Assembly: GCA_028821125.1 (NCBI GenBank)
Contig: JAPPHD010000001.1
Location: 1 to 64,000 of the forward strand
Source: Gammaproteobacteria bacterium
Lineage (GTDB): Bacteria > Pseudomonadota > Gammaproteobacteria > Pseudomonadales > Azotimanducaceae
Reading direction: 5' to 3'
DNA length: 64,000 bases
This document shows positions 15,320 to 18,860 of this stretch, one piece after another. Position 1 is the stretch's first letter. Every line of letters starts with the position of its first letter. The notes beneath the pieces were generated by a model that ran no database searches, was not told the origin of the DNA, and worked only from the letters and a program-made list of their open reading frames with translations. The position numbers were made by a program, and so were the translations under genes.

Positions 15320-16138
15320 TCAATCCGACGCCGACGAACGAACGCTGCCAAGTCGGTTAACGCTCCCGTTTTCCCCCAATTCCACATTGTCGATGAGCCT
15401 TACCGTCCCCCGGCGCCCGGGGACCGATACGGCTGCGAGGCGGCGGCCGAACCGGGAGACGATGTAGTCCACGGCAAACCCGAGGCGTTCGAGTTCCTCG
15501 GCCACGGCCCGGTCGGAATCCGGAGAACGCAGCAGGGGGTTGAGCCTCGATGCCAGCTTGCGGCTGTCGTCCGTGAGCAGGGCATTGCGCGAACTCAGCG
15601 CCAGCCCGTCGTCTTCGCGCACCGTTTCGCAGGCGACGATTTCCACGTCCATGAAGAACGCTTCGGTCATGCGGCGGATCAGCAGGCACTGCTGGAAGTC
15701 CTTGGCCCCGAAGTAGGCTCTTCCGGGGCGCACCAGGTTGAGGAGCTTCATCACCACGGTAAGTACACCGGTGAAGTGGCCGGGCCGGTGCGCGCCGCAG
15801 AGCTCGCGGCTGAGTTCCGTCTCCTCGACCCGGTAGCGATAGTCGTCGGGATACATGTCTTCCCGTGCCGGGATCAGCACGTGGTCCACGCCGAGCGAGT
15901 CGCACATCTCGAGGTCTGCTGCGGGCAGGCTCGGATAGGCGGCCAGGTCGTCGGGGTCGTTGAACTGGGTCGGATTGACGTAGATGCTCGCGACCGTAAC
16001 GTCGTTCTCGGCCACGCTCCGCTGCAGCAGGGAGGCATGGCCGGCGTGCAGGGCGCCCATCGTTGGAACGAAACCGACGGTGCCGGTCAGTGCCTTGCGG
16101 GTGTCCCGCCATTGCGCAAGGGATCTGAGAACTTTCAT
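15320..16138 (-). CDS. panC: Pantothenate synthetase
   Basis: VGFVPTMGALHAGHASLL, IYVNPTQFNDPDDLAAYP, LSRELCGAHRPGHFTGVLTVVMKLLNLV, FGAKDFQQ. Confidence 0.94.
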   Translation of the reverse strand: MKVLRSLAQWRDTRKALTGTVGFVPTMGALHAGHASLLQRSVAENDVTVASIYVNPTQFNDPDDLAAYPSLPAADLEMCDSLGVDHVLIPAREDMYPDDYRYRVEETELSRELCGAHRPGHFTGVLTVVMKLLNLVRPGRAYFGAKDFQQCLLIRRMTEAFFMDVEIVACETVREDDGLALSSRNALLTDDSRKLASRLNPLLRSPDSDRAVAEELERLGFAVDYIVSRFGRRLAAVSVPGRRGTVRLIDNVELGENGSVNRLGSVRSSASD

Positions 16139-16201
16139 GGAAAAAAGTTCAACCCTTTGATTTAAAAAGATGTATTCGACACAATTTCGGTGGTCTCGAC
16201 A

Positions 16202-16319
16202 GCGCGTTCGCATACGGCGCTTCCCTTTCGGCGCACGGCCACATCATCCAGCGTGACGCCAGGCTTTCGGACGAGCTTAACGCGCCGAAAGGGAAGCGCC
16301 GCATGCGAACTCTTTCCCG
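16202..16319. repeat. Palindromic MITE/REP-like element, copy B (inverted relative to copy A)
   Basis: Reverse complement of 1-118 with few mismatches. Same TIR arms, 16206-16235 and 16282-16311. Confidence 0.8.
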
Positions 16320-16385
16320 AGATTCGGCGTTGTTTCTTCCACGTCAGCGCCACAGCGTGCCGCCGAACCGATCGGCAACGAATAA

Positions 16386-17174
<789 letters not shown>

Positions 17175-17660: not shown

Positions 17661-18860
17661 CTACCCTTTTTGCGGCGCCGTTCTTCGACGCATCATCGCA
17701 GGCAGGAATGGCTTCATCAGGCGCGCGAGCAGCCGTGCCGCCCAACCGGGTTCCGGTGTGAGACTCGCGGCGCTGTAGCCGTTGATGCCGAGATCCTTCC
17801 TGAGGCCGGCGGTGACCGCGGCCATCTGAGGGTCCAGCGGGATTCCGGTGCCGTCGGCGATGCGCACCATCCGCTGAAAGTTGGCGACGATGCAGGCCGC
17901 ATCGACCATAGCCGCCTCGCCCAGTTCCTCCATGACCTGCCCGCGCGCGCCGGCGATGGATTCCGCGTCGTCGCCGAGGCAAACCTCGGCGAAGGCGAGC
18001 AGGGCCCTGTCTCCGGGAATTCCCGTGGCGACCTCGTCGCCCGCCACGACGCCGTTGATGTCGACGGTGTCTCCGTGGGACCTGGCGCTCAGACTGAGCA
18101 TCAGTGCATGAGCGCTGGTTCAGTAGAAGCAGTCGCTCAGCGACGAGATGCGCCCCGCCACCAGTTCGATCTGGTTGCGCGAGATGGCCCGGCCGGCGTT
18201 GTCGCCCGGGGTCATGATGCATCGCATCGGCAGGTAATGGCTGCGGCTCAGTGTCTTGAGCATGCGCACGGCGTCGGGCACCAGGCTCATGGCGGAGATG
18301 ACGTTACCGGCGCGGCCGCCCGGATAGAGGTCGGCTTCGGCCTCACTGGCGTTCTCCGGCTGCACCGTGTGCACCCAGGCCCCCGAGTCCGCGGCGCCCG
18401 GCGGGCGGTAGCCGCTCCGCTCCCCGGCCACCGGCGCCGGCAGCGGCTCCAGCGGCAGGCCGAGCGCGCGATGCAGGGCGTCGATGCTGATCGCCGCCAC
18501 CACGACGCCGAGGATCTCGACGTACGCCTCGTCGGTGATGCCTCCGGCATTTACCTTGTCGAGCCAGGTTCTTGAGAGACGCGCCGGGTCCGTGGTGAGG
18601 CGGTGGACGATGTCGACGACCAGCTCCGGCAGGTTGGTGGTGGTGTGGTGCGGGCCGAAATCCCCTTCCGGCGACAGCGCTGCGGCGCGCTTCTCACAGG
18701 CCCGGCAGGAGCGTGCGTTGCGCGACTCCTCGACGAACGCCACCCGGTCCTCCCCGCGCCACCAGTTGCCGGGTTGGCCGATGTTCCGCCAAATCTCCCT
18801 GTGCGCATCGGGAATGTCGTCGCGTATCGCGTACGCACTCCCGGTGTAGTCGAAACTCAT
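17661..18860 (-). CDS. AhpD/carboxymuconolactone decarboxylase-like protein, predicted selenoprotein (in-frame TGA as Sec, CxxU)
   Basis: ORFs 18120..18860 and 17661..18101 are in the same frame, separated by TGA (18120-18122). Continuous reading is ...AISRNQIELVAGRISSLSDCFY-U-TSAHALMLSLSARSHG..., where the TGA is at the second Cys of the AhpD C-x-x-C-x-x-x-H motif. Confidence 0.7.
18085..18115 (-). promoter_or_regulatory. Candidate bacterial SECIS hairpin
   Basis: On the minus strand: GCGCTCA-TGC-ACTGA-TGC-TCAGT-C-TGAGCGC. 7-bp outer and 5-bp inner stem, apical loop UGC 19 nt after the UGA. Confidence 0.65.

Follow-up and report, generated by a model that had tools for sequence, protein, structure and literature searches.

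The window analysed here is a stretch of DNA of 64,000 nucleotides, and it carries on its minus strand a gene (18860-17661) whose reading frame contains a single in-frame UGA (18122-18120). The two same-frame ORFs split by this TGA, and the read-through peptide SDCFY-U-TSAHALML that joins them, had been pointed out in an original prediction, and on re-checking the coordinates, the frame and the peptide are exact. The features referred to below are as follows.

17661..18860 (-), whole CDS with the UGA read as Sec, 399 aa; it matches NF041238, and its start and frame are common to its relatives.
17663-17661 (-), stop codon TAG of the read-through CDS.
18120..18122 (-), in-frame UGA, proposed Sec247; same codon in 61/61 loci, Cys in AhpD/CMD structures.
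18129..18131 (-), codon TGC for Cys244, first residue of CxxU; invariant in 42/42.
18108..18110 (-), codon CAT for His251 of the CxxUxxxH motif; invariant in 42/42, corresponding by spacing to His55 of PA0269.
17841..18278 (-), C-terminal AhpD/CMD domain with the CxxU site, about residues 195-340; assigned from a 6k40 profile match, AlphaFold2 and Foldseek.
18462..18818 (-), predicted N-terminal domain, CMD-like but degenerate, covering roughly residues 15-133; C52xxC55 lies at 18707-18696.
18085..18115 (-), hairpin of the original prediction, 7+5 bp, loop UGC at 18100-18098; 56.9% of cells paired, 12/12 pairs in 1/60 sequences.
18084..18102 (-), conserved hairpin, the preferred bSECIS candidate; 5' arm 18102-18096, loop AGUCU 18095-18091, 3' arm 18090-18084.

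An ORF with a weak match to a methyltransferase domain (PF08241; 18912-19748, -) ends 51 nt upstream of the start of the gene, on the same strand, and no counterpart of this ORF was found beside the relatives' genes. Downstream, again on the same strand, lie panB and panC (window 15320-17174, -). There is no conserved gene neighbourhood beyond the near relatives, and none of the neighbours points to a substrate.

The window protein matches the family model NF041238, “alkylhydroperoxidase-related (seleno)protein”, over practically its full length (E 8.2e-132, 439.8 bits against a cut-off of 175, model positions 1-356 of 357). It misses the cut-off of the TIGR01926 peroxid_rel model (40.4 versus 81.8 bits) and the gathering cut-off of the Pfam CMD family PF02627 (16 versus 23 bits), although fold and profile comparisons nonetheless place it in the CMD superfamily. 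In a 2026 review NF041238 appears under the name “AhpD-related protein (hypothetical protein 1, Sargasso Sea metagenome)”, with a CxxU motif (PMC13188914), and the available text of a 2005 paper presents “hypothetical protein 1” as four CxxU-containing sequences of unknown function, and counts some Cys homologues of it (PMC1088965). Since the family was published in 2005 and the match is full-length, the family is a known one and the window gene, judged by its sequence, is an ordinary member of NF041238 (AhpD_rel_CFYUT); nothing distinguishes it from the family as described in the available text of these two sources, which it resembles in the full-length match, CFYUT, CxxU and the in-frame UGA. 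The AhpD-like and CMD-like selenoproteins known from marine metagenomes (the COG2128 and pfam02627 groups) likewise carry CxxU in an AhpD/CMD domain and come from marine bacteria, but they are treated in the available text as families separate from “hypothetical protein 1” (PMC2398784, PMC1088965), and unlike them the window protein has an extra N-terminal CMD-like domain. The covarying hairpin and the tandem CMD architecture discussed below were not found in the available text of the published NF041238 descriptions (PMC1088965, PMC13188914), and relative to that text the hairpin, the tandem CMD-like architecture with its second CxxC, and the count of the gene within a taxonomic family are offered as additions to what is known.

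As bare observations, the UGA-split frame and the hairpin on which the original prediction was built are weaker than they look. More than 100 pairs of same-frame ORFs in the window are separated by just one TGA (counting pairs of at least 180 codons together), the local fold is moderately unusual compared to dinucleotide shuffles (z -2.7), and its energy is equalled or bettered by 2.4% of synonymous-codon shuffles. The observation rises above chance because protein identity, which had been noted to continue downstream of the UGA, runs past it in every relative. The commonness of UGA-split frames in the window also favours a competing explanation, in which the UGA would be a genuine stop or a sequencing error and the gene a shortened or defective AhpD paralogue, whether or not translation restarts at ATG 18101. 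Against this, the UGA is found at the same codon in 61/61 loci read individually (a set that includes the window's own copy and counts one genome twice), always after C-[FY]-Y, so that C[FY]YU is present throughout and CFYUT in the window gene, with identity on both sides; the same UGA is also present in another assembly, in a copy whose protein is 98% identical (L039), and synonymous sites just 3' of the UGA are constrained. With this evidence, a stop or an error has become a highly improbable account of the codon.

The machinery that selenocysteine incorporation presupposes, and for which the original prediction proposed a search, is present in the window's genome: the tRNA-Sec gene (selC; 75.8 bits), selB and selA are adjacent on one contig (C142) and selD lies on another (C33), all over curated cut-offs. 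Of 98 related genomes, 61 have a selA match, and 42 of these contain the gene; none of the other 37 does (Fisher P 4e-13, ignoring kinship). Most of the genomes without selA in this comparison come from other families. In G071 (L150:1-8000, G071:C321), a genome belonging to a different family within the order, selA and selB come immediately after the gene, an arrangement resembling a single operon with the Sec machinery.

The column of the UGA is occupied by Cys in the AhpD/CMD structures 6k40, 2pfx, 2oyo, 3c1l and 2o4d, which is the alignment result that the selenoprotein reading anticipated, while the close relatives all have UGA. In the taxonomic family of the window's genome, 138 of 207 genomes have an NF041238 gene, with TGA in all copies among the matches listed, and no Cys version inside the protein family was seen either in the 61 loci or, among the matches listed, in the 207-genome survey. 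A phylum-wide draw of 399 genomes yielded no NF041238 member over the cut-off except in the window's own genome, and no relatives were found in the plasmid and viral collections. Some genomes of the taxonomic family (G559, G634 and others) hold up to five NF041238 copies among the matches listed, and the family has therefore expanded by paralogy. In copies with extra TGAs a second Sec codon was considered and rejected, since those within the aligned cores sit at the C-terminal end, where they read like ordinary stops. The 98% identical copy (L039:264-1460, JAPOZD010000075.1), in which the UGA is kept, lies on a contig titled Alphaproteobacteria, a title which may reflect misbinning or a gene that has moved between lineages.

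The comparative evidence thus points very strongly to a gene for a selenoprotein of 399 aa belonging to NF041238. Of the original proposal, a CxxU AhpD-related selenoprotein with a SECIS hairpin, the selenoprotein part has held up, on the sel genes, the Cys column and the conserved UGA, while the assignment of 18115-18085 as the SECIS has not. One more Sec-decoding gene, which standard annotation would truncate at the UGA, would in this way be secured, and a protein family left as a “hypothetical protein” in 2005 is seen to have UGA in every copy examined and to be common in one family of the Pseudomonadales.

Structural comparison suggests what such a protein would look like. AlphaFold2 models the window protein, with an alignment of 42 family members, at a mean pLDDT of 96.3. 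The C-terminal half has a profile match to 6k40 (E 2.4e-14) and a Foldseek probability of 1.00, the Foldseek E value being only 3e-3. Its closest solved relatives are the TIGR01926 peroxidase-related enzymes (6k40, 2oyo, 2pfx, 3c1l, 2prr), each of which is a single CMD unit with Cys, whereas the window protein has Sec at that position and scores below the TIGR01926 cut-off. The N-terminal half, modelled separately (pLDDT 94.0), reaches a Foldseek probability of 1.00 to 3c1l and 2prr with TM ~0.53 and E values of 0.03 or weaker. A comparison of the two halves by hhalign gives a weak match of 37 columns, so that the claim of a tandem arrangement rests mainly on the predicted fold. The model suggests a tandem fusion of CMD domains, with a second CxxC retained in the N-terminal one: C52 and C55 are kept in 40/42 members. 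The N-terminal residues C52xxC55, H71, H86, D91 and R94 are each found in at least 90% of the 42 members.

The proton-relay positions E232, C244, Y246, U247 and H251 are invariant in the 42 aligned members. The corresponding relay consists of Glu36, Cys48, Tyr50, Cys51 and His55 in PA0269, for which peroxidase activity has been measured, and of Glu118, Cys130, His132, Cys133 and His137 in the AhpD of M. tuberculosis, and the spacing of the window protein is equal to that reported for both (PMC3141380). This invariance and spacing place the Sec at the second catalytic Cys, as the original prediction had it for the TGA in the AhpD CxxC. PA0269 (2o4d) and M. tuberculosis AhpD (1gu9/1knc) likewise have the catalytic helix pair with the spacing E-x11-C-x-[YH]-C-x3-H; unlike them, the window protein carries Sec where they have the second Cys, is roughly twice as long and has an N-terminal half specific to its family.

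The mechanism suggested by these comparisons begins with the decoding of the UGA as Sec by SelB and tRNA-Sec, with SelB binding a small hairpin 24 nt downstream of the UGA, most likely 18102-18084. The product would consist of two AhpD/CMD-like domains fused in one chain, with the active site C244-F-Y-Sec247-xxx-H251 in the second, and would most likely act as a selenol/thiol oxidoreductase. E232 and H251 would activate Sec247, which may then attack a peroxide or another small electrophile; C244 would resolve the selenenyl-sulfide; and an external reductant would restore the centre, possibly via the N-terminal C52xxC55, the order of these chemical steps being a presumed one. A role as a peroxidase-like enzyme or as another small-molecule reductase is proposed because the relay positions and their spacing are conserved. 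That C52xxC55 in the fused CMD pseudo-dimer forms a built-in electron relay for the C-terminal CxxU, or alternatively a metal site with H71 and H86, is a speculative proposal that we consider doubtful; if the relay existed, one chain would contain both a selenol catalyst and its own reductant module. The chemistry could also be that of some other CxxU small-molecule reductase rather than a peroxidase, such as a reductive dehalogenase of the kind represented by the CMD-type debrominase Bmp8, which occurs among the fold matches and also among weak sequence matches of the N-terminal half, and no AhpC-type partner is seen adjoining the gene. The better matches are nevertheless to AhpD-type and peroxidase-related proteins, and the five-residue relay of the active peroxidases is complete in the window protein, so that a non-peroxidase reductase activity of this sort is rated as the less likely outcome, at perhaps one chance in a few.

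The identity of the SECIS element requires that the fold of the window's own RNA be separated from the pairing conserved in the family, and the alignment used (A2) contains 60 gap-free sequences of 48 nt, counted from the UGA. The originally drawn hairpin (18115-18085; 7+5 bp, apical UGC 19 nt past the UGA) is present letter for letter. Its proposed agreement with bSECIS geometry is borne out for loop size, stem, spacing and energy; its loop G is followed by C and not by the usual G/U. As a SECIS it is unsupported: it is complete in 1/60 aligned sequences, the window's own; L039, the 98% identical copy, breaks one of its pairs; and another hairpin is conserved with covariation. Its pairs are formed in 56.9% of cells across the family versus 41.9% expected under a synonymous null, an excess attributed in part to the arm it shares with the conserved hairpin. 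An Rfam scan of the gene gave matches at chance level only.

The conserved hairpin, 18102-18084, has its arms (columns 21-27 and 33-39 of the alignment) paired in 86.7% of cells (n=60). RNAalifold picks it unaided, and when all helices are scanned against a null model preserving protein and codon usage it comes first, its five core pairs being formed in 82% of sequences compared to 11.5% expected. As closing pair, 53 sequences have C-G and the other 7 have U-A, without a mismatch, and the pair has switched between these states at least three times on the tree. Codon choice under the hairpin is unusual: Leu on the 5' arm is encoded by CTC or CTT in 60/60, while the commonest Leu codon of these genes is CTG, and the commonest Arg codon, CGC, is never used for the Arg in the loop. 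The loop G is invariant in 60/60 and the base after it is U or G, in keeping with the description of bSECIS elements (PMC13188914). Of the bSECIS model as given in the available text of that review (loop 3-9 nt, stem of at least 4 bp, G in the first two loop positions, 16-37 nt from the UGA, MFE <=-7.5 kcal/mol), 18102-18084 agrees in its loop AGUCU, its 5 continuous pairs, its G at loop position 2 and its 24-nt spacing, and on its own misses the -7.5 kcal/mol rule, at -5.6 to -5.8 kcal/mol (PMC13188914).

The strand 18090-18085 is common to both hairpins, and the two are therefore mutually exclusive. It may be supposed that the selenoprotein reading is right and that 18115-18085 is nevertheless the functional SECIS here, this lineage having replaced the ancestral signal. 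That hairpin is predicted to be the more stable fold in the window RNA (-16.0 versus -5.6 kcal/mol), satisfies the published rules on loop size, stem, spacing and energy and pairs above the synonymous null across the family. Replacement is nonetheless thought unlikely, given that the structure is whole in a single sequence and is broken in L039, buries the invariant loop G (60/60) of the conserved hairpin and offers G then C in its own loop, while the window keeps the conserved hairpin minus one outer pair of the seven (18101/18085). On the comparative evidence, 18102-18084 rather than the originally proposed hairpin is probably the bSECIS. The covariation at synonymous sites makes this assignment directly testable, and the case illustrates that the hairpin with the best energy in one sequence need not be the conserved one.
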